Shown piece by piece: positions 8,166 to 60,932 of a stretch of DNA of 64,000 bases. How positions within the stretch are numbered: the first letter of the stretch is position 1; each line of letters starts with the position of its first letter. Position numbers and translations under genes: made by a program. The notes below the pieces were generated by a model, which was given only the letters and a program-made list of their open reading frames with translations, did no database searches and was not told the DNA's origin. Source of the DNA: Sulfurimonas hongkongensis (lineage in GTDB: Bacteria > Campylobacterota > Campylobacteria > Campylobacterales > Sulfurimonadaceae); contig NZ_AUPZ01000005.1 in the NCBI RefSeq assembly GCF_000445475.1, forward strand, positions 156,259-220,258. Direction: 5' to 3'.

Positions 8166-8167
8166 AA

Positions 8168-10768: not shown

Positions 10769-11238
10769 TTTATACTCTCCTCAATATCGCAAAGAGGATT
10801 TTCAAGCGAAACATTTGCTTTTATCTGCTCATCAAAAACTATGACAGGGGCAACCGAACATGTGCCAACACATCTAGCTGTTAAAAGGGATAAAGCCTCA
10901 TCTGAAGTTGTACCTCCTGCCTTTATGCCGTATCTCTGCTCGATTTTTTGAAGGATTTTCTCAGAGCCTTTTATATGACATGCAGTTCCTGTGCAGACAA
11001 CAATGTTGTGTCTGCCTTTTGGTTTTAGCTTAAAGTTATTGTAAAATGTGGCGACTCCGTAAACTTTGGAGTAGGGCAGTTGTAGTCGTTTTGCAATGAA
11101 TTTAAGGGTATCAATTCCCAAGTAGCCAAAAATTCCCTGAGCACTATTGAGAACTTCTAAAAGAGAACTCTTCTCATATCCGAGTTTTTTTATAGCTTTT
11201 TCAAGCGCTTTGTATCTATCGTCAGTAGCTGTTGACAT
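10765..11238 (-). CDS. hoxE: NAD-linked hydrogenase subunit HoxE (NuoE-like)
   Basis: A thioredoxin-like [2Fe-2S] protein of 157 aa. Its ligands are C82 and C87 ([11 protein letters not shown]) and C123 and C127 ([11 protein letters not shown]). It is the first gene of the tightly overlapping hoxEFUYHW operon. The ATG has a GGAG box 7 nt upstream, and about 150 bp of AT-rich sequence before it probably holds the operon promoter. A NuoE of complex I is the alternative, but the adjoining HoxYH genes settle it. Confidence 0.92.
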
Positions 11239-45414: not shown

Positions 45415-45462
45415 ATAAAAAGATAAGCAATTTTTATACCAAAAATCACCTATCCTTAAAGT

Positions 45463-46023
45463 TTATGCGTATATGTTTTTGTTAAACTGATCAAACTCTT
45501 GAAGTGTTTTTTCTAGTAGTTTTTGAGTCTGCTCAAAAATATTTTCCATAAATTCAGTCGCATCTGATTGCTTTGACTTTTCTGGAATTTTTAACTCTCT
45601 CATAGATTTGTCAAACATCTCTACAATATTTGTCTTAATATGATTTTTACTATTTTCATCTCTCTCAAGACTAGGTTCAAATATACTAGCTATCTTGTTA
45701 GCTAATTGAGAGACAGGAGACTTAGGAGCCGCATCTTCAAGCTCTTTTAAAAATGAGTCAATATAAGGTTGTGCTACTTTCATAAAAGCGTCTATCTCTT
45801 TTTGATCTTGTGCATCTATGCCATTGCTCTCTACTGAAAACTTAAATGACTGCATCGATGAAAAACTCATAGATGTTTGTGAGCCGTTTTGATTTTGCTT
45901 ATGACTCATAGATGCTGACTGATGGTTTGCAAAGTCCATCTTTATGACGTCTCCACTAGAAGTTCTCATTGCGATATTGAGGTCATGTGCTCTATAAGCA
46001 TCCATCCCATAAGAAGTGTTCAT
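45463..46023 (-). CDS. Uncharacterised conserved-type protein
   Basis: A 186-residue soluble protein I do not recognise. The N-terminal half is polar and strand-like (HDLNIAMRTSSGDVIKMDF); the C-terminal half is helical (VAQPYIDSFLKELEDA, ATEFMENIFEQTQKLLEKTLQEFDQF). There is no signal peptide, TM or Cys. The frame opens at 46035, but GGAGG lies 5 nt before the ATG at 46023, so that start is chosen. It stands alone between the chemoreceptor and the molybdenum locus. Confidence 0.72.
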   Translation of the reverse strand: MNTSYGMDAYRAHDLNIAMRTSSGDVIKMDFANHQSASMSHKQNQNGSQTSMSFSSMQSFKFSVESNGIDAQDQKEIDAFMKVAQPYIDSFLKELEDAAPKSPVSQLANKIASIFEPSLERDENSKNHIKTNIVEMFDKSMRELKIPEKSKQSDATEFMENIFEQTQKLLEKTLQEFDQFNKNIYA

Positions 46024-46110
46024 AATATCCTCCATGATTTTATAGACTATAAATCGACCAAAGGGAGCAAAGTTTTAGGTCTATTTGCAGGGCTTTTTGG
46101 AAGTGAGGCT

Positions 46111-46914
46111 TTAGCCTCGCTTAATGTCACAGTTCCATGACACAAACGCCCAAACGCTATCCTTTGGTGCCCCAGGGGCATCTTTTATGTATAGCTCATA
46201 ATACTCTCTTGCTTTTTGTTGTTGTACTTCATTTAAAGAGCCTAAGCTCCAAATGAGAGACTTTACAAACTCATCCTCGTCTGTATATCTAACACTTCCA
46301 CTGCTTGTTGGGATATAGTCCACTTTTGGCAGATATCCCTCTTTGTAGAGTATGATGGGCAAGTACCAAAAGTCAGGCTTTGTAACTATTGTTTTGTCAA
46401 TGTAGTCTAAGATTTTCATATCTACAAAGCTCCCACCTGCCATATAGCTGACATAACAAGCCTTTCTAGCAAGATTAGAGATTTTTAAAAGTGCCGCCTC
46501 TATATCTAAGACTTCAATGCTTCTAGATGCTACGACAATATCTACGGCTTCTATCTCACTCCAGTCATCATCCCAACCCATATGATAAGTTGTGATGTTT
46601 GTAATACCTTCAGCCTCTGCAAATGATTCTAACTCATCAAGCATCTTGCGAGAAAAATCTATAGCTATAACTCGTTTTACTTTTTTAGCAAGCGGAATAG
46701 CAAGTGTTCCTGGTCCACAGCCCACATCAAGCACCACATCATCTTTGTCAATCTCCATCTTAGAGATAAAATCCTCAACATAGTGAGATTTTTGCATCCG
46801 TGGAGCCATCTCTTTTGACTTTTTGTCCCACTCATCACTACTTTTACGCTTAAAAACACTCTTTTGTTTATGCTCTTTGTACATCTTTGCAAAGTCAATT
46901 GGTTCTAAAAACAT
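46111..46914 (-). CDS. Class I SAM-dependent methyltransferase (molybdenum locus)
   Basis: A 267-residue enzyme with the SAM-binding motif VVLDVGCGPGTLAIPLAKKVKRVIAIDFSRKML (about 65-97) and later VDIVVASRSIEVL. The substrate is unknown. It follows the TonB-dependent receptor gene by 8 bp at the end of the operon. A second methyltransferase starts the same operon, so methylation is likely part of the locus function, possibly of a chelator or of a regulatory target. Confidence 0.82.
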   Translation of the reverse strand: MFLEPIDFAKMYKEHKQKSVFKRKSSDEWDKKSKEMAPRMQKSHYVEDFISKMEIDKDDVVLDVGCGPGTLAIPLAKKVKRVIAIDFSRKMLDELESFAEAEGITNITTYHMGWDDDWSEIEAVDIVVASRSIEVLDIEAALLKISNLARKACYVSYMAGGSFVDMKILDYIDKTIVTKPDFWYLPIILYKEGYLPKVDYIPTSSGSVRYTDEDEFVKSLIWSLGSLNEVQQQKAREYYELYIKDAPGAPKDSVWAFVSWNCDIKRG

Positions 46915-46922
46915 CTTATTCC

Positions 46923-48902
46923 TTAAAATTTATAATTTAGTGCTGCAAAATATTCACGACCAGCTTCTACAAAACCAGGATCGTACTCTATAAGTTCATC
47001 TGTAAGGTTTTTTATACCTATCTCAGCTTGAATAGTTTTAGCGTAGTTGTATATTACTTTGGCGTCAAAAGTTGTTATGCTAGACATTTTTACATAGTCT
47101 CTATTTGCGATTTGTTGATACTCGTCATCTCTAAATTTCATATTTGCATATATAGAGAATCCTGCTCCTATTTTTTGCTCTACATAAGCAAAAAATTGAT
47201 TTTCAGGGACACCTGTTCTTTTTACATCGCTATCGTTTTTGTTCTTAACATCTACAAAAGCATAATTTGCACCAACTTTTGTAGAGTCGTTCATGTAAGT
47301 TGCTTCTAGCTCAAGCCCTTTATGCTCAAAATCTCCAACATTTTGATTTTGCTCTTTTGTTGGGTCTGGAGCATATATTACACTCTGCACCGCGTCATTA
47401 ATTTTAGAGTAGTAAAGATTTGCTCCAGCAGTGATATTTTTAGTAGTGTAATTATAACTAAGCTCAAAGTGATTTGCTATCTCTTTGTCTAAGTCAACAT
47501 TTGGAACCGAGGTTCCCATGCGTCTTGAATATCTATCTTTCATACTCGGCAAATATGTTTTTTGTGCAGCACTAGCTCTTAGTTTTGAGCTCACATCTAG
47601 CGCGTAAACTAAAGCCACTTGAGGAGTAAAAGCATCTTGAGTTGTTAGTTTCATCATGTTTGTATAGGCACTGTTTGTATCATAAAGTTTGTCGCTCTCT
47701 CGCCTATCATAACTTAGTCCTGCTAATATTTTAAAAGACTCTGTGATGCTATACTCATCTTCTACACCAAGTGAGATGGTGTTGTCTTCATAGTCTTCAT
47801 CTAGTGTTTCACTTCCTGTAACCTTGTCTATATCATAAGCACGATGCACATCTTTTTTGTAGTTTAGAGCTAGTTTTAAGAAGTTGCTATCGGTTTGCAG
47901 CCCATACTCAAGCCTTTCTCCATAACTATAATCATCATAACGACTCTTCCATGACTTACCAAAGTTCATAGATGAGTGCTCTATATTGTCATAAGAGTGG
48001 ATTGAGTTTTTTATAGTGTCATAGTAAGCTAGGGCTTTTATATAACTGTTGCCAAAGTTTTTTTGTCCTGAAATAGAGAAAGTCTCTTTATCCCAATATG
48101 GCCAATCCCAATAACGAACACTCGACCGTGTGCTATCTACACTAGTTGGTTGCTCTTTTACGCCCTGCTGATTTGCGTAAGTGATGGCTATCTCACTCGC
48201 ATCATCTGCGATGAAACCCGCTTTTAGGCTTATCTTTTTATCGGTTGACTCAGATCTAAGTCTATCGCCTTTTGGTTGGACTGAGCCTAAGGTTGGTCTG
48301 TAATCATCACTCATTCTAAAGTGGTCTCTCTTGTTGTAAGAACCACTAAGTTGAGCGTAAAAACTACCCACTCTTGAACCTACATTTATACTCTCAACAT
48401 GCCTTGACATCTGCGCATCGCTATCTAAGATAATCTCGCCCTTTATGTTTCCCTCTAGTTCTTTTGTAGGTTTTTTAGAGATGATATTTATCACACCACC
48501 CATAGTATTTGCACCATAAGCTACAGATGAGTAACCTTTAGAGATATCTATCTGTGCAATGTCATTTGTGAGAAATCTATCATAATCAAAGTTTCCATCA
48601 TAAGGCACATAGACAGGGATACCATCTATAAAAACACCGATTCTCTTCGCATCAAAACCACGGATGCTTAGTGTCGTCTCTCCTCTTGCACCCATCTTAC
48701 TCATGCTAATCCCACTCACATTATCAAGTGACTCGGACACAGTTTGCTCATTGTTTTGCTCTATAGTTTGTGAAGTTATAGTTTGCTCTATAACATTTAC
48801 ATCCTCTATAGAGCTTGCAACACTTACTTTACCCAAAGTGTAACTACCATCAGCAAGTGCTAAAGATGCAACCACTGAGAGGGCTATAAAACTTTTTTTC
48901 AT
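46923..48902 (-). CDS. TonB-dependent outer-membrane receptor 1 (molybdenum locus)
   Basis: A 659-residue receptor with a signal peptide (about 1-17), a TonB-box-like TLGKVSVAS just after it, a plug domain (about 40-150: GISMSKMGARGETTLSIRGFDAKRIGVFIDGIPV, GGVINIISKKP) and a 22-strand-type barrel that ends YKF. It imports a substrate too large or too scarce for porins, using TonB energy. It sits between receptor 2 and a methyltransferase, downstream of a ModE-like operator. Substrate inferred as a molybdate or tungstate species. Confidence 0.9.
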   Translation of the reverse strand: MKKSFIALSVVASLALADGSYTLGKVSVASSIEDVNVIEQTITSQTIEQNNEQTVSESLDNVSGISMSKMGARGETTLSIRGFDAKRIGVFIDGIPVYVPYDGNFDYDRFLTNDIAQIDISKGYSSVAYGANTMGGVINIISKKPTKELEGNIKGEIILDSDAQMSRHVESINVGSRVGSFYAQLSGSYNKRDHFRMSDDYRPTLGSVQPKGDRLRSESTDKKISLKAGFIADDASEIAITYANQQGVKEQPTSVDSTRSSVRYWDWPYWDKETFSISGQKNFGNSYIKALAYYDTIKNSIHSYDNIEHSSMNFGKSWKSRYDDYSYGERLEYGLQTDSNFLKLALNYKKDVHRAYDIDKVTGSETLDEDYEDNTISLGVEDEYSITESFKILAGLSYDRRESDKLYDTNSAYTNMMKLTTQDAFTPQVALVYALDVSSKLRASAAQKTYLPSMKDRYSRRMGTSVPNVDLDKEIANHFELSYNYTTKNITAGANLYYSKINDAVQSVIYAPDPTKEQNQNVGDFEHKGLELEATYMNDSTKVGANYAFVDVKNKNDSDVKRTGVPENQFFAYVEQKIGAGFSIYANMKFRDDEYQQIANRDYVKMSSITTFDAKVIYNYAKTIQAEIGIKNLTDELIEYDPGFVEAGREYFAALNYKF

Positions 48903-48950
48903 CTTTTTTTTTTCCTTATATTTTTAGTTTTATATCTTTACTAAAAATCT

Positions 48951-50951
48951 TTAAAACTTAAACTCATAAGATGTGCCTATTACTCTTCCTTGATCTTCAA
49001 ATCCGAAGATGGTCATGTAGTTTTCATCAAGAAGGTTTCTGCTGTAGAGTGATAATTTGGCATCGTTTTGAAATAGTTTGTGGTTGTAGTCCAAAGAGAT
49101 ATTTATAGAGATAAAATCCCCTACATCATGATACTTTTTGTCAATCGTAAAAAAGTTAGACTCATAAGTGCTTAGATATTTACCAGAAAAATTTAGAGCA
49201 TAGTTCCCGATTTTTTTCTGCATAAGCGCAGAGATATTGTGTTTTGGTATCTCGTTTTTCTTTGCATCAGCCGTTGCATGAGCGTAGCTAAATGAGTAGT
49301 AAAAGGAGTCTACTTTACCATCAAAACCAAATTCCCCACCATATCTTTTTTGATCTATCTGATTAAATACTATATATGGATCATTGTTTGTTCCAAAATA
49401 AAGAGGCGATTTTATGTTTTTATTGTCATATAAGAAGAGATTTAGCGTAGGATTAAAGTATTGATTTACTACTTTTTTTACTCCTAGCTCATATCTATAA
49501 TTTTTTTCATCTTTCATAGCAGACCCATCTGCGCTCATGGCATCATCAGTAGTTCCTGATGTTAGATATGCAAATCTTGCACTAGCTTCTAAAGAGTTGC
49601 TAAATTTATAAAGAGCTCCAAATGAAAAAGCTATAGAAGCTTTCGCCCACTTATCTTCTATAATAGAGAGTTTTTGATTGTTGAGTTTTGTAACATTATC
49701 TGCCAAGACAGAGTTTGGATCATATCTCTCAACAGATGAATCAGTGTGTTTTTTATCAACTCTTAGTGACTCATCAACTATTAGTTTATTATCCATAAAG
49801 GCGTGAGAAGCATGTAAAAAAGCACCGTAAATCTGCTCTTTTCTTTGATATCCTTCATAAAACAGTTCTCCGTTTGGCGCATCATAATACATCGCTTGAG
49901 TACCAACTTTTACTATTGTATTGTCTAGTTTTATTGCATGTCTTAAGTCGATTGAGTCTGTGCTTTGTGTTCCTTTGAAATATAAACCTGGCGCTTGGGA
50001 TGGATTTGTTCTATCATAATCTTGGCTCCAAAGAGTTTTGGAGTGAGAGAGTTGCAGGGTTGTTCTGTTGTTGGCACCGAAATCTTTTTCAAAGATAGCT
50101 GAGACAAATTCATTCTCTATAGGTTCATATCTCCAACGAGAAGCACCAACCATGCTCATATCATTTGTTGCTCTTTGTGTCTCTTTTTCTGAATTAGAAT
50201 AGTATGTACTGATAGTAGCCGTAAACTCATCACCGACATAACCACTTTTTAAAAATATAGAGCCTCTATCTTCAGCGGTGTTGTAGTCTTTTTTCCCATT
50301 GGTAGATAATCCGTTGACACTTGCTAAATAAAAGATCTTATCATGAATGCCCCCATAGCTTAAATCTACTTTCTTTGTATCAAAACTCTCGTATGAAAAT
50401 TTTGCAACTCCACCGTTGTCTTGTGGGAGTTTTGTTTTTATCACGATAAAACCTAAAGTAGGAGCACCGTTTGGAGTTCCAAAACCGGCAATAGGTCCGA
50501 GTGTTAATGCACTAGCATCTCTTATAACCTCGATAGACTCTACAACATCAACGCTTAGAGATTCAAGGATTCTCAAAGAGGACATCGGCGAGAGTAGGGC
50601 ACCATCTAAAATCACTCCAAATGCCGCTGCGCTATAGATATTTGAGCTTCCACGAAATGTTATGATTGCAGAGTTTTTTCGCCCTTGGAATTGAACATTT
50701 GCCCCTGCTGTTTGGTTGATAGCTTCAAATATATTTTTAGGATTGGCTATCTTTATCTCCTCTTCACTTAGCTTGTCAATGGCAAGTTTTGAAGTCTCAG
50801 GTGCACTAAAAGCCTCATTTTGGGAGAGTGTTCTAGGGTTTTCATTTTCGCTTACACTAACTTTTTCTAGCTTATAATTGCTTTGTGCAAAGGAACTGCT
50901 TGCAGCTAAAATTGCAACAAGGCAAAGACTTAGTTTTATTTTAAATTTCAT
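48951..50951 (-). CDS. TonB-dependent outer-membrane receptor 2 (molybdenum locus)
   Basis: A 666-residue receptor with a signal peptide ending SSSFAQ, then KLEKVSVSE, much like the TonB-box stretch of receptor 1. The plug has NIFEAINQTAGANVQFQGRKNSAIITFRG and VVESIEVIRDASALTLGPIAGFGTPNG; the barrel ends YEFKF. The plug differs from receptor 1, so the two probably take different substrates or forms. It follows a methyltransferase gene by 15 bp. Confidence 0.9.
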   Translation of the reverse strand: MKFKIKLSLCLVAILAASSSFAQSNYKLEKVSVSENENPRTLSQNEAFSAPETSKLAIDKLSEEEIKIANPKNIFEAINQTAGANVQFQGRKNSAIITFRGSSNIYSAAAFGVILDGALLSPMSSLRILESLSVDVVESIEVIRDASALTLGPIAGFGTPNGAPTLGFIVIKTKLPQDNGGVAKFSYESFDTKKVDLSYGGIHDKIFYLASVNGLSTNGKKDYNTAEDRGSIFLKSGYVGDEFTATISTYYSNSEKETQRATNDMSMVGASRWRYEPIENEFVSAIFEKDFGANNRTTLQLSHSKTLWSQDYDRTNPSQAPGLYFKGTQSTDSIDLRHAIKLDNTIVKVGTQAMYYDAPNGELFYEGYQRKEQIYGAFLHASHAFMDNKLIVDESLRVDKKHTDSSVERYDPNSVLADNVTKLNNQKLSIIEDKWAKASIAFSFGALYKFSNSLEASARFAYLTSGTTDDAMSADGSAMKDEKNYRYELGVKKVVNQYFNPTLNLFLYDNKNIKSPLYFGTNNDPYIVFNQIDQKRYGGEFGFDGKVDSFYYSFSYAHATADAKKNEIPKHNISALMQKKIGNYALNFSGKYLSTYESNFFTIDKKYHDVGDFISINISLDYNHKLFQNDAKLSLYSRNLLDENYMTIFGFEDQGRVIGTSYEFKF

Positions 50952-50966
50952 TTTTCATCTTCTTAT

Positions 50967-51617
50967 TTACTTCGTTATAAAAACCCACCAACCACTCTCA
51001 TCATCTATGATGGTGTGTTGTGATGGGTTTAGTGAGTTTAGTATTTGTGGCAAAGCTTCTCGCTCTGTCTTTACTCGCTCTTTAAAGGAGTCTCTCCAGT
51101 CTGGTTTCTCTTTGCTCATGTGAGCGGTTATTTGATCTCTTAGCTCTTTTGTGCCAAATCCTCCGCCTATGTAAGCGTGTCCGCCGACTTTTAAGATTCT
51201 TAGTATTTCACTATAAGCCTTCTTCCAATCATCCCAGAACGGCGAAGAGCCGCGGCTTATGACTATGTCCATGCTCTCATTTTTTATATCTATGTTATGG
51301 ATATCGCCGTTTAAAAAATCACTTTTATCTAAAATATTTTCACCCTTTGCATAGTCTCTAGCGAGCAAGAGCATCTCAGGCGATTGGTCGAAAAAAGTGA
51401 TATGTAAGTCGGTAATACTAGCCATTGCTCGTCCAAGAGCTCCAGTACCGCATCCAGCATCAAAGCATCTACCAGATGTAACTCCAGTTTTTTCTTTTAT
51501 CTGCTGTGCAATTACAGGATAGATGGGTGCAAACACTTCACGCACGATGCGGTCAAAACTTTGAGGGTTTGATCCGCCTTTGTGCTCTTTATTTTCCATA
51601 CTTTTAACTTTAACCAT
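50967..51617 (-). CDS. Class I SAM-dependent methyltransferase, first gene of the receptor operon
   Basis: A 216-residue enzyme with SAM-binding motif CFDAGCGTGALGRAMA (about 52-67), MDIVISRGSSPFWDDW as motif IV and KVGGHAYIGGGFG as a later motif. The substrate is unknown. GGGGG 7 nt upstream of the ATG is the ribosome site, and a ModE-like palindrome sits 19 bp before the start codon. It leads the transcript with both receptors and the second methyltransferase. Confidence 0.82.
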   Translation of the reverse strand: MVKVKSMENKEHKGGSNPQSFDRIVREVFAPIYPVIAQQIKEKTGVTSGRCFDAGCGTGALGRAMASITDLHITFFDQSPEMLLLARDYAKGENILDKSDFLNGDIHNIDIKNESMDIVISRGSSPFWDDWKKAYSEILRILKVGGHAYIGGGFGTKELRDQITAHMSKEKPDWRDSFKERVKTEREALPQILNSLNPSQHTIIDDESGWWVFITK

Positions 51618-51635
51618 TCTTTTACCCCCTTTTAG

Positions 51636-51659
51636 TGTTATGTCTTCTTATACATAACG
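51636..51659. promoter_or_regulatory. ModE-like operator before the receptor operon
   Basis: Arms TGTTATGT (51636-51643) and ACATAACG (51652-51659) around an 8-bp centre: 24 bp in all, seven of eight arm positions symmetric. This is the spacing and sequence of the E. coli ModE site (CGTTAT... ...ATAACG). It overlaps the expected promoter of the methyltransferase-receptor operon. The binding protein would be the ModE encoded at 59274-60053. Confidence 0.7.
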
Positions 51660-51676
51660 ATATATAAATAAATATA

Positions 51677-52858
51677 TTATGCCCAATCTAAAAGGCGTCT
51701 CTCGCCCTCTATCTTTTGTATATCTGTAATATCTTGCGTAAGTTCGATTACACCTTTGTAGTTTTTATCTTCATCTCTAAGAGCAAAGTATCTGATATGA
51801 ATCAATTTACCGCCAAAATTTATCCAAAACTCAGCACTATCTTTACTTCCATTTTTAAAAGCTTCTAAGATAACTAAAACTGTATCAACGCTCTTTGGAG
51901 GGTGACAAAACTTTACTTCTCTTCCAATTATCCCTGGACTTCTTAAAAAAGTCCTCTCGCTGCCTTGGTTGAAAAATGCCACTCTATCATTCTCATCTAC
52001 AAAAGTTACATCAAAAGGCAGGTGGCTAAAAAAGAGGTTTAGTTGCTCTTGTGAGAGATAACCTTCTTTGAGAAATATTGAACTAAGTGATGATGCCATA
52101 TCTGGTTTTTTACTCTCATTTGTTGGCCATAGTGGAGGGTTTTGTATGAAGACATAACCTATCTCTTTCTCTTCAAGGCTCATTTTTTTCCACTCATCAT
52201 GAGAGAGCAGTTTTACAGATGTAGGAAGTAGCATCTTCTCTTCTCTAGTTGTCATATCATAGATATCTTTTACAACATCGCCTAGAAGTGCTGATATCTC
52301 TTCGTTTACTCTTTTCTCTTCAACAGCTTTTATAACTATTTTTAGGTTATCTCTTATCTCATCATGAAACTTCCACATGCCAGTACTCGGGTAAGTAAAG
52401 TCATGTTTTTCTAAGTATGGAAAGAGTTGATCCTCTTTTCTTAGATAGTGTGTGTGAATCTTAGAAAGTTCATGCAAAAGTCTTAAACTCTCATCGTAGC
52501 TTTTAAGATTTTGCGCATCAAACGCAGCTTTTACTTTGTCGCACAACTCTCTAATGACTACATTTTCTTTTAAGTAGTTTGTGACTGGATGGCCTTCTGG
52601 CTGGCTAAGTGGATCTGACTTTACTCTGTTTTTTATAACATCCAAAAAGAAATCTCTTCTAGGGATGCTTCTCTCTCTTGGACCATCTTCATCAAAAACT
52701 CTCTGATTTGCTTTGAAGAAATGCTCTATCTTTATCTCTTTCATCTCGACTAGCCACTCATCTTTTTGAGTATCATTCATCTCATCAAATGACCTATGAA
52801 AGTTCACTATCTTTTCTATAATTTGGCTCTCATCTTGCTTGTTTAAAAACTCACTCAT
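51677..52858 (-). CDS. DUF438 / hemerythrin / PAS protein in the molybdenum locus
   Basis: A 393-residue soluble protein. Residues 1-90 match DUF438-like helices. Residues about 95-245 form a hemerythrin-like bundle (LLHELSKIHTHYLRKEDQLFPYLEKH, KFHDEIRD, TREEKMLLP supply His/Glu ligands). Residues about 275-385 are a PAS domain (LPFDVTFVDENDRVAFFNQGSERTF, GVIELTQDITDIQ). It has no output domain. It could sense oxygen, NO or redox state by a di-iron centre. It follows tonB by 11 bp, so it belongs to the first molybdenum operon. Confidence 0.82.
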   Translation of the reverse strand: MSEFLNKQDESQIIEKIVNFHRSFDEMNDTQKDEWLVEMKEIKIEHFFKANQRVFDEDGPRERSIPRRDFFLDVIKNRVKSDPLSQPEGHPVTNYLKENVVIRELCDKVKAAFDAQNLKSYDESLRLLHELSKIHTHYLRKEDQLFPYLEKHDFTYPSTGMWKFHDEIRDNLKIVIKAVEEKRVNEEISALLGDVVKDIYDMTTREEKMLLPTSVKLLSHDEWKKMSLEEKEIGYVFIQNPPLWPTNESKKPDMASSLSSIFLKEGYLSQEQLNLFFSHLPFDVTFVDENDRVAFFNQGSERTFLRSPGIIGREVKFCHPPKSVDTVLVILEAFKNGSKDSAEFWINFGGKLIHIRYFALRDEDKNYKGVIELTQDITDIQKIEGERRLLDWA

Positions 52859-52869
52859 CTTTTTTTCCT

Positions 52870-53631
52870 TTATTTTAGATTAAATGCCACTGGCACTATT
52901 ATTGATATCTTCCCTTTTGGCGGAGCAAGAAAGGGAGATACTTGGACTATGGTGTTTATCGCCTGTCTGTCAAGTGAGCTGTTGCCACTCGATGTGTGTG
53001 TGGATATAGTTGAGCCCTCAACACTTCCATCTTCTAAAATATTAAATTTTACTACGCTCTCTCCTTGTATTTTTAATCTTCTTGCTAGTGGTGGATATCT
53101 TAGGTTTTGCTCTATTTTGACTCTTACTTTATAGAGATATATCTCTAGCTCATCAGCACTCATAGTTGAGTCCTCGGCATCCTCACTTAGTGTAGCCTCT
53201 TGCGAGGGTTTAGTGGGCTCTGTTATCTCTTTTGGTTCTTCTTTTTGTGTTACTTCTTCTACTATCTCTTCTTTTTTTTCTATAGGTTTTGGTTGGGTTT
53301 TAGCAATTGGTTTGGGTTTTGGTTCTGATTTGATGATTGGCTTAGGCTTCACAGTTGGTTTAGGCTTTGGTTTAATGACTGGTTTTGGCTTTATAACTGG
53401 TTTTGGCTTTATAACTGGTTTAGGTTTTACAATAGGTTTAGGCTTTTCTACCTTTTTCTCTTTTACAATCTCTTTTTTTTCTTCTTTTACTTCTTGCATA
53501 AGTTCAATCTCTATAGTTTTGTTTTTTATAACTTTAGGTTGCTTTACTTCATTTAGAGTGTAAAAGATAGATGCGTGCAGAAGTGTTGTAGAGAGCACAG
53601 CTGCGATAACTCTTTTATATGGCGCTATCAT
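52870..53631 (-). CDS. tonB: TonB protein
   Basis: A 253-residue energy transducer. An N-terminal membrane anchor (about 8-25) is followed by a long periplasmic spacer of Lys-Pro repeats (KPKPVIKPKP units, about 60-125), then the C-terminal TonB fold (about 165-253: VRVKIEQNLRYPPLARRLKIQGESVVKFNILEDGSV). It overlaps exbD by 4 bp. With ExbB and ExbD it probably serves the two receptors of this locus. Confidence 0.94.
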   Translation of the reverse strand: MIAPYKRVIAAVLSTTLLHASIFYTLNEVKQPKVIKNKTIEIELMQEVKEEKKEIVKEKKVEKPKPIVKPKPVIKPKPVIKPKPVIKPKPKPTVKPKPIIKSEPKPKPIAKTQPKPIEKKEEIVEEVTQKEEPKEITEPTKPSQEATLSEDAEDSTMSADELEIYLYKVRVKIEQNLRYPPLARRLKIQGESVVKFNILEDGSVEGSTISTHTSSGNSSLDRQAINTIVQVSPFLAPPKGKISIIVPVAFNLK

Positions 53632-54029
53632 CTGCTCTTTACCTCTGTTTGAATTGAAAACTTGTTAATATCATTTGCTTTACAGATATCTATAATATCG
53701 ACAACATGCTCAAATGAGACCTTTGCATCACTTCTTAAAATCACTCCATTTTTTGAAGCCTCTTTGACATCTTTTAAAAGAGTTTTGCCTAAATCTTCTT
53801 TTGTTGTGAGTATGTCATTTAGGTAAATGTTAGCATCTTTATCTATAGTGATTGTGATTGGTTTTTGCTTATCTTTTTGGGTCTCTGTGCTAGAAGTTGG
53901 AAGTGTGATATTTATCTTTCCTTGTGCCACAAAAGTAGCAGTAGCCATAAAAATAACGAGTATAACAAGAACAATGTCCACAAATGGAGTCATATTTATC
54001 TCTGATATTTCGTTATGCTCACAACTCAT
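53628..54029 (-). CDS. exbD: ExbD, TonB-system proton channel subunit
   Basis: A 133-residue protein with one membrane helix carrying the essential Asp: INMTPFVDIVLVILVIFMATATF (Asp about residue 18). The periplasmic domain follows (INITLPTSSTETQKDKQKPITITIDKDANIYLND). It overlaps exbB by 4 bp and tonB by 4 bp, the standard exbB-exbD-tonB order. Confidence 0.94.
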   Translation of the reverse strand: MSCEHNEISEINMTPFVDIVLVILVIFMATATFVAQGKINITLPTSSTETQKDKQKPITITIDKDANIYLNDILTTKEDLGKTLLKDVKEASKNGVILRSDAKVSFEHVVDIIDICKANDINKFSIQTEVKSR

Positions 54030-54466
54030 GACGCTTCAGCCTCTCTCTTTAGTAGTGTCATTCTTATCTTTCTTACAAAGTAGTTATAAGCGATAACACT
54101 AGGAATCGCCACAAAAAGTCCAGCAGCAGTTGCAACGAGGGCTTCAGAGATGCCTCCCATTACTGCATTTACTCCAAATTCGCTCCCCTTTGAGAGCGTT
54201 GCAAAAGCGTTTATAACACCTAAAACTGTTCCAAATAGCCCTATAAAAGGAGCATTGTTTCCGAAAGTTGCTAAGATGCCAAGTCGTTTTTCTAGGATAA
54301 GTTTTATATCTGGCACACTTAGCTCATTTAGGCTTTTTTTGATGGAACCAAAGACTAAGAGTCTCTCAACTATCACTCCAAAAGAGACAAGGCTCATAGC
54401 TATTAGTATCCATAAAACGGGATCAACTCCTATAAAAACAATGGAGAGCAGTTTTTCAGTTAGCAT
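54026..54466 (-). CDS. exbB: ExbB, TonB-system proton channel subunit
   Basis: An approximately 146-residue MotA/TolQ/ExbB-family protein with three membrane helices and the motif LGILATFGNNAPFIGLFGTVLGVINAF. I start it at the ATG at 54466 (MLTEKLL, with AAAGAG upstream). The longer frame opening at 54517 would overlap the binding-protein gene by 62 bp. Short for ExbB, as is common in this phylum. Confidence 0.92.
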   Translation of the reverse strand: MLTEKLLSIVFIGVDPVLWILIAMSLVSFGVIVERLLVFGSIKKSLNELSVPDIKLILEKRLGILATFGNNAPFIGLFGTVLGVINAFATLSKGSEFGVNAVMGGISEALVATAAGLFVAIPSVIAYNYFVRKIRMTLLKREAEAS

Positions 54467-55439
54467 CTCTTTTCCTTTGTACAAAAAATAGTTTAAAAAA
54501 CTCCTCTTTTTCATCAAGAAATGAGCTAGCTCTTAGAGTTGGATAGAAAGAGTCGATGAGCCATCTAATGCCAAGGAGCCTCATAAACGATGGAGGTCTT
54601 GAGATGTAGTTAAAAGGAGATGATGGAACTAAAAAGACTTTTTTCTCTTTTACTGCCCTTAGTGTTGAGAATTGGGGATTGTCATATATAGACTCTACAA
54701 AACTCTTCTCCATCGCCACAATGACATCAGGATCGCTAAGGAGTATAGTCTCTAAGCTAATTTTCTCCATCCCATAGTTAGAGCTCATTTTACAATCAAG
54801 CGCATTTTTTGCCCCTGCGTACTTAAATGGCTCTAAGTGAAAAGAGCCTTCGCATTCGCTATATTGCCCATCAATACCTTGTGCAAAGTAGTAGCTAATA
54901 GGTTTTTGTTTTGCCAATGTACCTTGCATATGCTCGACCAAGTTTAGGCTCTCTTTTGTGTAGGCTATAAGTTCATTTGCTCTTGCCTCATCGCCCGTTA
55001 GTTTTGCATAGAGTTCAAACTGTGTTATTAGGTCATAGATGGATTCGTTGTTTACAAGCAAAACAGGGATACTTAGTTTTTCAAGTTTTGCCAATATCTT
55101 CTCGTGCCCACTCATCCTAGACCACATGATTACAACATCGGGTTTCACGCTAGCTAAAATCTCAAAATTTGGAATATTCCCTTGTCCCATAAAACCGCCT
55201 ACAACAGGTTTGTCATAAGCACTTCCCACGAACTTTTTTTGAATCTCGTTAAATGGAGAGTTAAGCCCTGCAACTAAATCAGGGTTAAATGCTAAAAGAG
55301 ACATACTAAGAGGTGGTGATGCTGCATAGATTTTAGTGATGTGTTCTGGCACTTTTACAACCCTGCCGTGGTCATCTATGATAGTTCTAGCATAAGCGGT
55401 TGTAAAAATAAGCACAAAAATCGATAGAATTATTTTCAT
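54456..55439 (-). CDS. ABC transporter periplasmic binding protein, FecB/BtuF/MolA-like
   Basis: A 327-residue binding protein with a signal peptide (MKIILSIFVLIFTTAYA) and the two-lobe layout of helical-backbone binding proteins: IIDDHGRVVKVPEHITKIYA, EILASVKPDVVIMW, ISLETILLSDPDVIVAME. The family binds chelated iron, cobalamin or, in MolA, molybdate/tungstate. The ModE context and modD favour molybdate or tungstate. It overlaps the TSUP gene by 4 bp. Confidence 0.86.
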   Translation of the reverse strand: MKIILSIFVLIFTTAYARTIIDDHGRVVKVPEHITKIYAASPPLSMSLLAFNPDLVAGLNSPFNEIQKKFVGSAYDKPVVGGFMGQGNIPNFEILASVKPDVVIMWSRMSGHEKILAKLEKLSIPVLLVNNESIYDLITQFELYAKLTGDEARANELIAYTKESLNLVEHMQGTLAKQKPISYYFAQGIDGQYSECEGSFHLEPFKYAGAKNALDCKMSSNYGMEKISLETILLSDPDVIVAMEKSFVESIYDNPQFSTLRAVKEKKVFLVPSSPFNYISRPPSFMRLLGIRWLIDSFYPTLRASSFLDEKEEFFKLFFVQRKRDAN

Positions 55440-56224
55440 TTTTTCTCCTTTTTAAACAGTTTATATGCAGAGAGTAAAAGTATAATTGCTAAGAAAAACT
55501 CTATGAACTTGGCATCCATTATTCCAAAAAGTATTGCACCAATAAAAGCACCAATAATCGAACCAATGGACATCCATATTAAAATATCTCTAAAGCTTAA
55601 AACTTCTAAAAGCCTGCCGTTTTTGTGGTACCTATAAAGACCCACTAATAGTGTAGGAAGTGAGATGGCTAGACTTAGTGTTCCTGCTGTTTTAATGTCT
55701 GTAGCATACAAAAGTACGATAGTAGGGATAAGTAATTCTCCTCCTGCGACGCCTAAGAGTGAACTAACCATACCGATGCCAATACCGAGAATAAAACCTA
55801 ATACAATTTGAAATATTAACGGGAGTATGAGGGCACTCTTTACCTCTATAAAAATATGGCTAAAAAGAACTAAACTTAAAAAAATTAAAAGATAAAAAAT
55901 AAGTGTGTGAAGTGTTCTTTTATCTATTTTTGTTGCATAGGAAACCCCAATATAAGCACCGATAAGTGTTCCAGAGAGAAGATTAAGTACTATGTAGCCG
56001 TGTGATAAGATATTTGCATCAACTCCTCTAAAAACAAGTGCAAAGAAAACTGTTACAAGAGAGATAGAGAGATTTAGGATAATGGCATGGAGCGTATCAA
56101 TTTTGAGAATACCTACTAAAAAAGGTAATCTAAATTCTGCTCCACCAAGTCCTATAAGTCCGCCAAGTGTTCCAATAATGCTAGAGCCAAAAAAACTTTT
56201 GAGTTTTATAAATCTTGTGCTCAT
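55436..56224 (-). CDS. TSUP-family (TauE/SafE) membrane permease
   Basis: A 262-residue membrane protein with about seven to eight helices and the duplicated TSUP motif: IIGTLGGLIGLGGAEFRLPFLV near the N-terminus and GMVSSLLGVAGGELLIPTIVLL in the middle. The family moves sulfite, sulfonates, thiosulfate or other oxyanions. It overlaps modD and the binding-protein gene by 4 bp each, so it is a true member of the molybdenum operon. A role in oxyanion movement is inferred. Confidence 0.85.
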   Translation of the reverse strand: MSTRFIKLKSFFGSSIIGTLGGLIGLGGAEFRLPFLVGILKIDTLHAIILNLSISLVTVFFALVFRGVDANILSHGYIVLNLLSGTLIGAYIGVSYATKIDKRTLHTLIFYLLIFLSLVLFSHIFIEVKSALILPLIFQIVLGFILGIGIGMVSSLLGVAGGELLIPTIVLLYATDIKTAGTLSLAISLPTLLVGLYRYHKNGRLLEVLSFRDILIWMSIGSIIGAFIGAILFGIMDAKFIEFFLAIILLLSAYKLFKKEKK

Positions 56225-57039
56225 AACGACTCTTTGATGGTAACTTTTATATCAAGTGGTTTTGCGTGATAGGGCGATGAAGTAACTATAAAATCAACTC
56301 CACACTTTGCAAATTCTTCTATGTTTGACTCATGTATTCCGCCAGTAGCAGAGAGTAGTAGATGCGGATAGTGCTCTTTTAGAGTTACGCACTTTTTAAG
56401 AGTCGCATACTCCATCTTTTCGCATTGAAGTATGTCAGCACCAAGAGATGCGAAGTAACACGCGTCTTTATAGTCTTCAACTTCTACAGCTATTTTTTTC
56501 TCTAAAAACTCATACTTTAGTTTAGTAAAAGCACTCTCAAGCTCCTCTTTTGTATTAAAAAAGTTAAGATGTTGCTCAAAGACTAAGATGCTGTCATAAA
56601 GTCCCATGCGATGAATAACTCCACCGCCCGCCATCACAGACTTTAGCATGAGCTCTTTAGATCCTGGGAAGTTTTTTCTAGTAGTTGCTACGCTTATTTT
56701 AGGGTTTATCTCTCTTGCTTTTACTACAAGTGAGTTGGTATATGTGGCAATCCCGCTCATATATTCAAAAATATTTTGAGAGATTTTCCACGCTTTATGC
56801 AGACTCGCGGCATCGCCCTTACACTCAAGTATAATCTCTTTACCCTCGACACAATCGCCATCTCTTTTATGAAATTTATGCTCTATATTTAACTCCCTCA
56901 TAACTTTTAAAACTTCATCAACCCCGCAAAGGATAACTTCGCCCTTTGGAGCAAAACTCATAGTAGCCTGTTTTTCGCCAATGCCAAGTCCGTGAGTTGT
57001 TAAATCAAAATAACCCAAATCTTCATATAGTAAGTTCAT
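56221..57039 (-). CDS. modD: ModD, NadC-like pyrophosphorylase of molybdenum operons
   Basis: A quinolinate phosphoribosyltransferase-like protein of about 272 residues. It has the family elements YEDLGYFDLTTHGLGIG, KISQNIFEYMSGIATYT, ATTRKNFPGSKELMLKSVMAGGG and LLLSATGGIHESNIEEFA. The form lacking the usual NadC start and linked to molybdate transporters is called ModD; its reaction is not well established. I choose the ATG at 57039 (AAAGGA upstream) over the frame opening at 57066. Confidence 0.86.
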   Translation of the reverse strand: MNLLYEDLGYFDLTTHGLGIGEKQATMSFAPKGEVILCGVDEVLKVMRELNIEHKFHKRDGDCVEGKEIILECKGDAASLHKAWKISQNIFEYMSGIATYTNSLVVKAREINPKISVATTRKNFPGSKELMLKSVMAGGGVIHRMGLYDSILVFEQHLNFFNTKEELESAFTKLKYEFLEKKIAVEVEDYKDACYFASLGADILQCEKMEYATLKKCVTLKEHYPHLLLSATGGIHESNIEEFAKCGVDFIVTSSPYHAKPLDIKVTIKESL

Positions 57040-57835
57040 GTAAATCCTTTTGTCTGCTTTTTTCAAAAATCGGTAAACATCTTTTATGCTCGCCGTGAGT
57101 TACGATATCCGCTTTTATGTCGTAAATCTTCTCTATCATTTCTTTAGTTATCACCGCTTCTGGTGCATCATCTGCCACAATAACGCCCTCATGCATAACT
57201 ACAACACGACTAGACATAAGAAGTGCGTGGTCTGGATAGTGAGTGGTTTTTAAGAAAGTATAACCCTCAGATGCAAGTGAATCTATAAGCTCTAAAAGTC
57301 TTATCTGATTACCATAGTCAAGCCCAGCAACTGGTTCATCCATGATGAAAGTATTTACCTCTTGAGCGATAGAGCGAGCTAAAAGTACCATCTGTTTTTG
57401 TCCGCCACTAAGTTGCCCAAATGCTCTGTTTTTTAGATGCTCCATACCGATTTTCTCTAATGCTGCCATAGCCACTTCATAATCTTTTTTTGAAGGTTGT
57501 GCAAAAAAACCGAGCTTTGTGACCCTAGCCATGAGCACCATATCAAGAACCTGATAATTAAATGGTGTGTTGTTATATTGCGGAATGTAAGCTATTTTAT
57601 GAGCTAAATCTTTGTGTGAGTAGCTTTTCAAATCCTCTGCATCTATCTTGATATCTGCATCTGTATGGATGAGTTTTAGGATGAGTTTTATAAGTGTGCT
57701 TTTGCCACAGCCGTTAATGCCAAGGAGTGAGACAACTTCACCTCTGTTTAACTCAAAATTTATGCCAGAGAGGACCTTGTGATTTTTATATGAGAAGTGC
57801 AGGTCATTTACCTCTATGATAGGTTTTAGTTCCAT
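57023..57835 (-). CDS. ABC transporter ATPase, FecE/BtuD/MolC-like
   Basis: A 270-residue ABC ATPase. Walker A is GINGCGKST, the signature LSGGQKQMVLLARSIAQ, Walker B TFIMDEPVAGLDYGNQ and the switch His in KTTHYPDHALL. It powers the permease gene it overlaps by 10 bp and overlaps modD by 17 bp. The subfamily is that of iron-chelate/B12/molybdate importers. Confidence 0.9.
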   Translation of the reverse strand: MELKPIIEVNDLHFSYKNHKVLSGINFELNRGEVVSLLGINGCGKSTLIKLILKLIHTDADIKIDAEDLKSYSHKDLAHKIAYIPQYNNTPFNYQVLDMVLMARVTKLGFFAQPSKKDYEVAMAALEKIGMEHLKNRAFGQLSGGQKQMVLLARSIAQEVNTFIMDEPVAGLDYGNQIRLLELIDSLASEGYTFLKTTHYPDHALLMSSRVVVMHEGVIVADDAPEAVITKEMIEKIYDIKADIVTHGEHKRCLPIFEKSRQKDLHELTI

Positions 57836-58836
57836 GCTGCCCTCGCATTTTTTAAAACGATAATAAAGATAGGAATCCCTATGAGTGAAGTAAGGATCCC
57901 AATAGGAATCTCAACACTTAAGGCTAGTCTTGAGATAGCATCTGCACTTAGCAAAAATATAGCACCAATAACTGCACTAAGAGGAATAAGCAAACGATGT
58001 GATGGACCAACAGCCATACGGATGATATGGGGAATGATAAGTCCAACCCAGCCAATAATCCCAGCCATCACAACGCTCAGTGAACTTGCAAGTGTAGCAA
58101 GGATGATAGCTACGATGCGGATGAGTTTTACATTTACACCAAGAGCCTTTGCTTCTTCATCTCCTAAGCTCATAAGATCAAAATATTTACTCATAAAAAC
58201 CATCCCTAAGATGCTAAGCGTGATGGGGATTGCGACAAGCAGAGTCTCATTTAGCTCTGCCATGGAGAGTGAACCCATTAGCCAGTAAACGATGGCTGGA
58301 AGTGTAGAGTATGGATCTGCAACATACTTTATGATGGAGAGAAGTGAAGTAAATAGTGAGGCGCTGATAACTCCGCCAAGAACTAGCATCACAGTTGAAC
58401 GAGAGTTTGTAACCATAGAACCAATAAAAACAGCAAAACCAACTGCTACAAAACCAAAAACAAAAGCTAAAATCTGTACGATAAACCAATGTTCAGAGAT
58501 TAACATTCCACATGCCGCACCAAAAGATGCACCTGCTAAAACGCCCAAAATCCCAGGAGAAACAAGAGGATTTACAAACATCGCTTGAAACACCGCTCCA
58601 CTCGTTGCAAGTGCCGCACCGATGAGAATAGCTAGCAACACACGAGGAAGGCGAATATCTAAGATGATGCTCTCTATAAGAGTGAAATCTTGCGTAGCAG
58701 GACTTGAGAATAGCTTGTGATTTAGGTAGTCAAAAAAAGTAGAGATGCTTATATCAAACTGCCCCCACAAGAGTGAGAGAGTTGAGAAGAGTACTAAGAT
58801 GATTGTTACGATGATTAGATATTTAGCATCATTCAT
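57826..58836 (-). CDS. ABC transporter permease, FecCD/BtuC/MolB-like
   Basis: A 336-residue permease with about 9-10 helices. Family marks are RLPRVLLAILIGAALATSGAVFQ, NPLVSPGILGVLAGASFGA and GIIGWVGLIIPHIIRM. It would import the periplasmic ligand delivered by the binding protein. Its ATG is overlapped (ATGA) by the stop of a 14-codon leader frame. It is the first large gene after the ModE-like operator at 59210-59233. Confidence 0.9.
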   Translation of the reverse strand: MNDAKYLIIVTIILVLFSTLSLLWGQFDISISTFFDYLNHKLFSSPATQDFTLIESIILDIRLPRVLLAILIGAALATSGAVFQAMFVNPLVSPGILGVLAGASFGAACGMLISEHWFIVQILAFVFGFVAVGFAVFIGSMVTNSRSTVMLVLGGVISASLFTSLLSIIKYVADPYSTLPAIVYWLMGSLSMAELNETLLVAIPITLSILGMVFMSKYFDLMSLGDEEAKALGVNVKLIRIVAIILATLASSLSVVMAGIIGWVGLIIPHIIRMAVGPSHRLLIPLSAVIGAIFLLSADAISRLALSVEIPIGILTSLIGIPIFIIVLKNARAAWN

Positions 58837-58877
58837 AAGAGTTTAAGTGTTAAAGAAGATTTTAATGTAGCTGGCAT
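58833..58877 (-). CDS. Possible 14-residue leader peptide of the permease operon
   Basis: A frame from ATG to TGA encoding MPATLKSSLTLKLL, with AAGGAC 9 nt upstream. Its stop codon overlaps the permease ATG as ATGA, and the permease has no ribosome site of its own that I can see, so translation may be coupled. Too short to judge by composition. Confidence 0.35.
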   Translation of the reverse strand: MPATLKSSLTLKLL

Positions 58878-58953
58878 ATTTGTTTTGTCCTTATTTATTA
58901 TGGTTTGTTTAGTCTATATATAAAATCTAGTGAGACGCTTTTTTGTGTAAGAA

Positions 58954-59166
58954 TCATCTTGCGTGGGGGGGGACACCTAACAAGAAAATCAAATGAGAAA
59001 AATGTATTTTTAACCAATAAGTAAAGAATAAAAAAGGCTCACTAGACATATGAAGCGCTAACGCCTCAAGCGAAGATACCAGTGTATGTAGTATCTTCTG
59101 TTGAAGTGTAGTTATAGTGTTACAAATGCCTTGCATCTTTTTTGACATAACGATAAATAAATTCAA
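58954..59166 (-). CDS. Possible 70-residue protein between the ModE site and the permease
   Basis: A TTG-started frame with a strong AAGGAG site 6-7 nt upstream. The peptide has a start like MNLFIVMSKKMQGICNTITT, a Leu-rich middle and a hydrophobic, aromatic C-terminal part that could be one membrane segment. I recognise no family, and codons at the end run through a poly-G/C tract. It fills most of the 437-bp gap 58837-59273 and starts 43 bp after the ModE-like palindrome. It could be a real small gene or a leader. Confidence 0.35.
   Translation of the reverse strand: MNLFIVMSKKMQGICNTITTLQQKILHTLVSSLEALALHMSSEPFLFFTYWLKIHFSHLIFLLGVPPHAR
59129..59152. promoter_or_regulatory. Weak second ModE-like site
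   Basis: The right arm ACATAACG (59145-59152) is identical to that of the site at 51652-51659. The left arm at the proper distance, CCTTGCAT, keeps only five of eight consensus bases. It lies 81 bp (centre to centre) from the strong palindrome, inside the possible 70-codon frame. Confidence 0.3.
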
Positions 59167-59209
59167 AATATTCTCCTTAGAAAATAAAAATAGTAAGTCT
59201 CTAATTAAA

Positions 59210-59233
59210 CGTTATATCTAAACAGATATAACG
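59210..59233. promoter_or_regulatory. ModE-like operator before the molybdenum transporter operon
   Basis: Perfect 10-bp arms CGTTATATCT and AGATATAACG with AAAC between, 24 bp in total. This equals the length and end sequence of the E. coli modA operator bound by ModE. It lies between modE and the transporter operon, all on the minus strand. Molybdate-bound ModE would repress the downstream genes. Confidence 0.75.
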
Positions 59234-59273
59234 AAGTTTAAACTAAAATGTCTTAAATTAAACTTTAAAGTCC

Positions 59274-60053
59274 TTATAAACCTATAATTATGTTTTTTGT
59301 GTTTATAATTGCGTAGGCACTCTCGCCAATTTCTAAGCTTAACTCTGAAGCATCTCTGCTTATGGCTGCGACTAAAGAGAGAGAGTCATTTACCTTGAAT
59401 ATAATCTCTTGTGAGTGTTCTGAAGTCTCCATAGAGTCTATAGTTCCTTCTATAATATTTAAGCTCTTGTGAGCTTTTGGCGCTATTTTTACTATCTCTA
59501 TATCGCTTGATTTTATGATGGCGTAAGTGTCGCTGCCAATGTGAAGTGCCATATCTTTAGCTGATTTTGCTGTGATGCTTGAGATTAAAGAGACACCACC
59601 TAAGAGTGCAAGTTCAAGATTTGTGCTTAGTTCATCTTGTGTAATGCTTTTTACTTTTGAGGGTAGCTGATTTCTAGCACTTGTGGTTAAAAAAGTTCTG
59701 TTTAAGATGCTCTCTAGTCTATCTGCATCGTCTCCAGCTTCTGCAAAACGGTCTATAAACTTAGCATGAACATCTTTAAGTCTCTCGAAAGTTTGGATGA
59801 GTTGATGGGCGTAAGGTGTAAGTGTGGTTCCACCTCCACCACGCCCCCCTGTAGTTCTTGTGATGAGTGGCTCATCGGCAAGAGCATTCATGCTATTTAC
59901 TCTCTCCCACGCTGCTTTATAGCTCATCTTCATCTCTTTTGCAGCTGCATTCATCGAGCCAGTTTTTTCTATGATTTTTAGGAGTTCTATCCTACCTGAG
60001 CCTAAAAAACTCTCTCCATCTTTACTAAGCCAAAAACGACCATCTATCTTCAT
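59274..60053 (-). CDS. modE: ModE-type molybdate-responsive regulator
   Basis: A 259-residue protein with the full ModE layout. Residues 1-115 are the winged helix (GRIELLKIIEKTGSMNAAAKEMKMSYKAAWERVNSMN, ITRTTGGRGGGGTTLTPYAHQLI). Two Mop/TOBE domains follow (about 130-192 and 197-259, each with SxxxxAI-type ends: SDTYAIIKSSDI and ESAYAIINTKNI). The Mop pair binds molybdate or tungstate. It lies just upstream of the molybdenum operons and divergent from surE. Confidence 0.92.
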   Translation of the reverse strand: MKIDGRFWLSKDGESFLGSGRIELLKIIEKTGSMNAAAKEMKMSYKAAWERVNSMNALADEPLITRTTGGRGGGGTTLTPYAHQLIQTFERLKDVHAKFIDRFAEAGDDADRLESILNRTFLTTSARNQLPSKVKSITQDELSTNLELALLGGVSLISSITAKSAKDMALHIGSDTYAIIKSSDIEIVKIAPKAHKSLNIIEGTIDSMETSEHSQEIIFKVNDSLSLVAAISRDASELSLEIGESAYAIINTKNIIIGL

Positions 60054-60143
60054 CTACATCTCCTAAAAAGTAAAAGTCTATTTAAAATCATATCCAAATC
60101 TATGTTTTGTAAAGATTTTGCTTTTAGATGATAAAATACGCTT

Positions 60144-60929
60144 ATGAAAAATAAATACAGAATTTTGGTAACAAATGATGATGGTTATGAGGCAAAGGGT
60201 TTGCTCTGTTTGATTAGAGCATTAAAAGAGATAGATGATGTAAGAGTAACAGTAGTAGCACCTGCAAATGAAAAATCAGCTTGTGGGCACTCACTAACAC
60301 TTGTGCGTCCTCTAAAATTTGTGAGCGTGGATGATGATTTTTACAAACTCGATGATGGAACTCCTAGTGACTGTGTCTATCTATCTTTGAGTACGATTTT
60401 TGTCGATAGAAAACCAGACTTACTCATAAGTGGGATAAATCGCGGCTCAAATATGGGTGAAGACATAACTTATAGTGGAACAGCAGCTGGGGCCATGGAG
60501 GGAGTTTTGCACGATATTCCTTCAATCGCCATCAGTCAAGTGATGGACTTTACAAACCCTGAGGGAGATTTTTCTTTGGCAAAAAAAACCATAAAAGAGC
60601 TAGTTTTAAAGATAAAGGATGGCTCCTTTCCACTTCCTCATAGAGAGTTTTTAAATGTAAATATACCACCAGATACAAGTGAAGCTAAGATGCAAGTAAC
60701 CTATGCTGGATACAGGTTTTACGCAAACGATTCACATGTTCATAGAAATCCTCGTGGAGAAGAGCACTATTGGCTGGGCTTGCATCCTCTTAGTTTTTCA
60801 CCAAGAGAGGGCTCAGATGGAGTGAGTGACCATGAGGCAATAAAAGCAGGAAACATATCTATAACTCCCATACATCTAGATTTGAGTGCATATAAAAGTA
60901 TGCAAAAACTCAAAGAGTGGATAGAGTAG
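60144..60929 (+). CDS. surE: 5'-nucleotidase SurE
   Basis: A survival-protein-E phosphatase of 261 residues acting on nucleoside monophosphates. Metal-binding and active-site parts are ILVTNDDGYEAKGL (Asp-Asp), APANEKSACGHSLTL (Ser), DGTPSDCV and ISGINRGSNMGEDITYSGTAAGAMEG (Asn). Normal length. It is followed 3 bp later by an E1-like gene. Confidence 0.96.
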   Translation: MKNKYRILVTNDDGYEAKGLLCLIRALKEIDDVRVTVVAPANEKSACGHSLTLVRPLKFVSVDDDFYKLDDGTPSDCVYLSLSTIFVDRKPDLLISGINRGSNMGEDITYSGTAAGAMEGVLHDIPSIAISQVMDFTNPEGDFSLAKKTIKELVLKIKDGSFPLPHREFLNVNIPPDTSEAKMQVTYAGYRFYANDSHVHRNPRGEEHYWLGLHPLSFSPREGSDGVSDHEAIKAGNISITPIHLDLSAYKSMQKLKEWIE

Positions 60930-60932
60930 AGT

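Follow-up and report, generated by a model that had tools for sequence, protein, structure and literature searches.

A ModE-linked, TonB-dependent uptake locus in Sulfurimonas hongkongensis and other Campylobacterota, probably for molybdenum or tungsten

A stretch of 64,000 nucleotides from the genome of the sulfur-oxidising bacterium Sulfurimonas hongkongensis (RefSeq assembly GCF_000445475.1, contig NZ_AUPZ01000005.1, positions 156,259 to 220,258; here referred to as the window, the numbering of which is used throughout) carries a conserved, molybdenum-linked TonB uptake locus. On the minus strand, from 60053 down to 46111, it consists of modE, a FecBCD-type ABC importer, modD, a TSUP permease, a periplasmic binding protein, exbB-exbD-tonB, a hemerythrin-PAS protein, a methyltransferase (MT1), two TonB-dependent receptors (TBDRs; receptors A and B), and a second methyltransferase (MT2). 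The genes behind modE are arranged in two units, and a ModE-type operator stands at the head of each. With a probability of roughly 70%, this two-unit locus takes up molybdenum or tungsten (Mo/W) with energy from TonB and under repression by ModE. At high cytoplasmic molybdate or tungstate, ModE would sit on both operators and keep both units shut, and scarcity of Mo/W would open both.

The link to molybdenum starts with the regulator and its sites. The modE gene (59274..60053, minus strand) encodes a helix-turn-helix domain (NCBIfam TIGR00637, 99.2 bits, and 100.9 bits in the genome search, over the cut-off of 98.5) and two molybdate-binding Mop domains (TIGR00638, 80.3 bits over two stretches, cut-off 55), and it is the single ModE match in the whole genome. 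Residues 15-258 align with Escherichia coli ModE (1o7l), and the two proteins have in common a TSARNQ stretch that we take to be the ligand stretch of the E. coli protein. Sites were scored against CGTTATRT-N8-AYATAACG, a form that follows E. coli ModE sites and was picked once the first matches were known. Operator 1 (59210..59233), the perfect palindrome CGTTATAT-N8-ATATAACG, lies between modE and the permease gene and is the sole site without mismatch in the genome. Operator 2 (51636..51659), which reads CGTTATGT-N8-ACATAACA on the minus strand and has one mismatch, heads unit 2 at 18 bp before MT1, and the same position is occupied in four of the comparison loci described below (L020, L040, L041, and L044). 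In the window, three ModE-like matches at ≤3 mismatches were found against 0.25 expected, a number that none of 100 shuffles reached; the third match (51658-51681) adjoins operator 2. In the 2.3-Mb genome, three of 21 distinct sites at ≤3 mismatches fit the consensus at ≤1 mismatch, against 0.29 expected from the base composition of the window, and these three are operators 1 and 2 and a site upstream of modA on contig C9, which heads modA, a Mop-like open reading frame (ORF), and a modB-like ORF truncated where that locus stops. The operators that the initial annotation had placed at both unit heads are thus there, with 0 and 1 mismatch, and exceed chance in both window and genome. A degenerate second ModE-like site with one half kept (59129..59152, minus strand, 3 mismatches) is best kept in L088 (1 mismatch), and paired ModE-like sites 44-77 bp apart occur at unit heads elsewhere (L034 502/578; L038 931/1008; L059 13748/13814 and 18874/18939; L067 16655/16699).

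The association is not confined to this genome. Searching named genomes with a binding-protein profile yielded 20 loci (e.g., in Sulfurimonas, Sulfurovum, Sulfuricurvum, Helicobacteraceae, and Campylobacterales). Among 397 genomes of the phylum, 78 held a match at E ≤1e-30, which reached E <1e-140 in 16 cases. Forty of the 78 genomes contributed one region each; the window genome aside, 37 were left out. Removal of six duplicate contigs from 60 loci left 54 (994,565 bases), which include a few mutually close relatives. By profile score, a TBDR is present in 52 of the 54, the permease with the ATPase in 49, and a TBDR together with the importer in 48. A ModE site at ≤1 mismatch was found in 40/54 loci, modE in 22, any match to modA, modB, or modC in 20, and modD in 16, while tonB occurs in 31, exbB plus exbD in 13, and the hemerythrin-PAS gene in five. 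Enzymes recur as well: MT1 or MT2 in 36/54, an LLM flavin monooxygenase (PF00296) in 32/54, and a globin (PF01152) in 29/54. No LLM match was obtained in the window genome, in a search that had no positive control. A gene-neighbourhood search in Campylobacterota had been set beforehand as a check, and it came out in favour of the proposed role: 43 of the 52 loci with a TBDR bear a molybdenum mark (modE, a site, or modA), a count that does not change when the rule is tightened to a site or a modE or modA match of >100 bits, and 42 do so by modE or a site alone.

Gene order in relatives ties the receptors to known molybdenum genes. In L066 and L067, a single strand carries modE, modA, a gene in the Mop position (an ORF unmatched by profiles in L067), modB, modC, a TBDR, the LLM monooxygenase, the binding protein, permease, ATPase, and MT2; L070 is built alike and begins with Mop2, and L044 repeats the gene order of the window without the TSUP gene and has a molbindin-type gene between its two TBDRs. 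The 54 loci hold 62 ModE sites at ≤1 mismatch, whereas 11 of 12 shuffled half-sites gave 0-1; the 17 matches of the remaining one all fall in a single conserved coding motif of a second binding protein. Sixty of the 62 sites fall outside called ORFs or ≤30 bp from ORF ends, and two fall inside. The gene most often found ≤400 bp after a site is the binding protein (14), followed by globin (7), TBDR of any profile (6), modA (5), and MT1, Mop, tonB, and porin (4 each). Taken together, the operators and the runs with modABC and molbindin genes support well the ModE control and the Mo/W acquisition role that had been suggested from the window alone. An ordinary TBDR locus might have come to lie beside modE by chance, given the abundance of TBDR genes in this genome (10 PF00593 matches); this is very improbable and is contradicted by gene order and operators that recur in many loci and genera. 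Two further features of the comparison loci are recorded here. An OprD-type porin gene lies in the molybdenum run of L034, L047, L048, and L049, beside modA or near modBC, and may provide a second outer-membrane route for oxyanions. A protein that adjoins a TBDR in several loci (L038 17865-18605 and relatives) weakly resembles methanogenesis marker protein 11 and TiaS (39 and 25 bits, under the cut-offs).

In the window, classes were assigned from Pfam and NCBIfam, and the ABC ATPase was named by eye and by conservation. Unit 1 begins with a FecCD/BtuC-type permease (57826..58836, minus strand like all genes of the locus; NCBIfam BtuC/FecD families, all under equivalog cut-offs) and the ATPase (57023..57835), which adjoins the permease in relatives too. 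It continues with modD, which is quinolinate phosphoribosyltransferase-like (56221..57066; TIGR01334, 248 bits, cut-off 178.85), the TSUP (TauE/SafE) permease (55436..56224; PF01925, 95.8 bits), the binding protein (54456..55439), exbB (54026..54517; PF01618), exbD (53628..54029; PF02472), and tonB (52870..53631; PF03544). From the permease through tonB, every gene overlaps its successor. As called with a TTG start, exbB overlaps the end of the binding protein gene by 62 bp (54456-54517), and a later start is possible. After an 11-bp gap, a 393-residue protein with hemerythrin and PAS domains (51677..52858; PF01814, PF13596) closes the unit. Unit 2 comprises MT1 (50967..51617; PF08241/PF13649), receptor A (48951..50951), receptor B (46923..48902), and MT2 (46111..46914; PF13649), separated by 15, 48, and 8 bp. 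Among 120 of 430 matches listed for MT2, the relatives with a named source belong to Campylobacterota or to an unassigned bacterium. All genes named in the initial annotation were recovered on one strand; its list lacked the hemerythrin-PAS gene between tonB and operator 2. Its description of overlaps or short gaps holds except for 373 bp between operator 1 and the permease gene, where the degenerate second ModE-like site lies and a structured leader is predicted, and its placement of the locus next to nap is loose: a napA-like ORF, recognised by eye, begins about 8.5 kb past the locus end, and the interval is occupied by other genes.

The nature of the substrate was approached through the binding protein, which is of the FecB/BtuF fold class (PF01497). 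By sequence it is closest to 4PAG from Sulfurospirillum deleyianum (E about 5e-60) and much more distant from MolA of Haemophilus influenzae (3PSA, E 2e-12). An AlphaFold2 (AF2) model with a predicted local distance difference test (pLDDT) score of 86 ranks these, among other structures, alike, with 4PAG as the best PDB match at a template modelling (TM) score of 0.83 and MolA at 0.74. In the profile alignment, an E-C...S-F-H and an R-P-P-S-F-M-R stretch are common with 4PAG and not with MolA; since these are not kept in MolA, the ligand site may differ from that of MolA. The earlier view of the importer as no more than a MolABC system for bare oxyanions is therefore not borne out, as 4PAG is far closer than MolA. 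Nor is the binding protein ModA-type, and modA stands separately on C9. The TBDRs and methyltransferases, together with the flavin monooxygenase of relatives, point rather to a metal complex than to a bare oxyanion as the importer substrate. It is conceivable that bare molybdate or tungstate, or thiomolybdate, is taken up TonB-dependently with no organic carrier and that the methyltransferases serve otherwise, as the MolA fold class of the binding protein would allow. The similarity to MolA itself is weak, and the recurring methyltransferase, LLM monooxygenase, and globin genes suggest an organic ligand; both points make such a carrier-free route rather doubtful.

On the reading preferred here, uptake of Mo/W under ModE control, receptors A and B would take in a Mo/W complex, powered by the co-encoded ExbB-ExbD-TonB, and the binding protein would pass this complex, or the oxyanion after its release, to the FecBCD-type importer for transport into the cytoplasm. 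The gene order supports the proposal of the initial annotation that the outer-membrane step has a TonB system of its own. Given the frequency of methyltransferase, LLM monooxygenase, and globin genes across the loci, the organic ligand may be altered or broken down: the methyltransferases, joined in relatives by the flavin monooxygenase and globin, might act on it so that the metal is freed for cofactor synthesis. This processing step is speculative, and methylation of catechol-type chelating groups would be a guess. Extended further, the loci could represent a molybdophore pathway of Campylobacterota in which ModE-controlled receptors import Mo/W-chelates, methyltransferases and monooxygenase destroy the chelating groups, and, in Sulfurimonas, the operator also drives a molybdenum-starvation RNA; this is put forward tentatively, and as a whole it is rather unlikely.

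At genome level, ModE was found in 76/78 genomes with the binding protein versus 230/319 without it (Fisher 1e-7), and nifH in 32/78 versus 43/319 (2e-7), both with phylogeny ignored. The two genes lie on the same contig in 21 pairs, and in three genomes nifH is within 16 kb of the binding protein gene (7.8, 11.3, and 15.7 kb). These close cases are on contig C18 of G203, C1 of G373, and C10 of G378, and in the latter two genomes modE is also about 4 kb from nifH.

A number of points weigh against a role in Mo/W uptake, among them that neither of these co-occurrence tests was corrected for phylogeny. In the window genome, nifH gave no match, and a modA with its own operator (L011) is already present. 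Nine of the 52 TBDR loci have no molybdenum mark (L023, L026, L028, L029, L033, L065, L071, L073, and L074); four of them have sites at 2 mismatches (L023, L026, L028, and L033), L023 and L028 are contigs of <6 kb, and L071, L073, and L074 come from family f3, the ModE matches of which are mostly weaker. PMC4031551 describes MolBC-A as having low affinity and serving at high molybdate, so that scavenging does not follow from the analogy with MolABC. The last two points concern the receptors and the operator regions, and they bear on whether the locus serves iron-siderophore, haem, or cobalamin uptake placed under ModE, e.g., owing to a joint need of molybdenum enzymes and Fe-S or haem proteins.

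For these substrates, receptors with a FecBCD/BtuCDF-type importer are the usual hardware. Both receptors have the plug domain PF07715; receptor B also has the barrel PF00593, and receptor A, for which Pfam gives the plug only, has an AF2 model (pLDDT 73) that fits BtuB, PqqU, and FecA (TM 0.70-0.71 by query length for BtuB and FecA). Receptor B resembles haem, B12, and siderophore receptors in NCBIfam, all under the cut-offs, with a haem receptor subfamily as its best match (129 of 317 bits), and hemerythrin here and globin genes in relatives would fit such a function. No NCBIfam equivalog cut-off for B12, haem, siderophores, or iron was reached by the locus, the B12 equivalogs BtuC, BtuF, and BtuB scoring 193.9/334, 33.6/234, and 64.2/836 bits. 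No Fur-like site at ≤4 mismatches occurs in 45000-61000, the best match having 5 and lying inside receptor B, so Fur control of the unit heads was set aside for want of a good site there. This argument is weak, since among seven TBDR loci elsewhere in the genome only two (L001 and L005) have a Fur-like match within about 20 bp of the TBDR start, the other five have none there, and 4-mismatch matches also fall inside genes. With modABC, molbindin, and modE genes in the same runs in relatives, an iron, haem, or cobalamin function under ModE is considered unlikely.

Compared with known systems, the locus shares with MolABC (HI1470-1472 of H. influenzae) the FecBCD/BtuCDF-type importer class, used there for molybdate and tungstate, and a related binding protein; it differs in the linked TBDRs, ExbBD-TonB, and enzymes, and MolABC is of low affinity according to the source cited above. 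With ModE-ModABC of E. coli and others, it has in common the sensor family and operator form, and its own genome keeps modA and the Mop-like and modB-like ORFs behind such an operator, whereas FecBCD-type parts replace the ModA-type binding protein and ModBC here and an active outer-membrane step would be added. Receptor, ExbBD-TonB, binding protein, permease, and ATPase correspond to FecA-FecBCD and BtuB-BtuCDF uptake. Systems of that type are usually under Fur control or a B12 riboswitch; the units described here have ModE-type operators and include methyltransferases and modD. The nearest precedent is found in Azotobacter vinelandii, where VnfA1-activated TBDR/ABC operons are induced without Mo and V (PMC9542535), so that TBDRs with ABC components are likewise expressed under molybdenum limitation. 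In the available part of that source, these operons are activated by VnfA1/VnfA3 in an alternative-nitrogenase context, their receptors are termed siderophore receptors, and no ModE operator is mentioned at the three operons. Molybdophores figure among reported metallophores (PMC11317620). Among the matches listed in a search of the open-access literature, with subscription papers mostly outside it, neither a ModE-controlled TBDR system nor a ModE-linked small RNA was described.

If the proposed role holds, Mo/W would join the metals that are actively transported through the outer membrane, by a ModE-controlled TonB route conserved in the phylum, and candidate molybdophore receptors would be named. 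Molybdate is taught to enter through porins. Many Campylobacterota inhabit sulfidic redoxclines, where dissolved molybdenum is scarce, and the locus would explain the supply of molybdenum enzymes in nitrate reducers and nitrogen fixers at such sites.

Between operator 1 and the permease gene, conservation and fold score predict a structured leader RNA (58912..59118, minus strand). The leader stretch is 78% identical to L020 across 355 nt, its fold beats all 200 shuffles (z -3.9; z -5.8 for the copy in L057), and an RNA model (R1) built from four copies retrieved two further copies among the 397 genomes (E 5e-15 and 1e-12), as well as three weak matches (E 0.002-0.009). The six copies (the window; L020 990-1153; L041 5102-5254; L057 9141-9300; L083 1501-1658; L084 1501-1632) all come from genomes of the window genus, and five of them sit between a ModE site and the following gene of the molybdenum locus, e.g., between modE and the binding protein gene in G200. 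The copy in G327 lies apart from the locus, about 1.7 kb past MT2; it follows a ModE-like site that has 1 mismatch and is flanked by a 71-residue ORF and, by eye, a Rho-like ORF. Column covariation is weak (both partners vary in one of 24 pairs, and 199/500 shuffles score at least as high), and hairpin 1 re-forms from differing letters in 6/6 copies when each is folded singly.

Other identities for the leader were considered. Rfam gave no relevant match, and the Moco riboswitch, with none to E 1 in 45000-61000 and none to E 5 in L057 8900-9400, was thereby ruled out for these regions. A remnant of a second binding protein or TBDR absent here was rejected, as blastx returned nothing (best E 2). 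ORFs of about 100 residues are present in L041 and L057; the frame is broken in the window and L020, and an RNA is therefore preferred over a coding gene. Within the leader, and within a small ORF, positions 58965-58972 form a tract of eight C (eight G on the plus strand), the sole G/C run of ≥7 in the window, and it is possible that this is a phase-variable tract or drift. Elsewhere in the window, the genes at 6298-11238 look by eye like a set for a bidirectional NAD-linked hydrogenase that includes a maturation protease.

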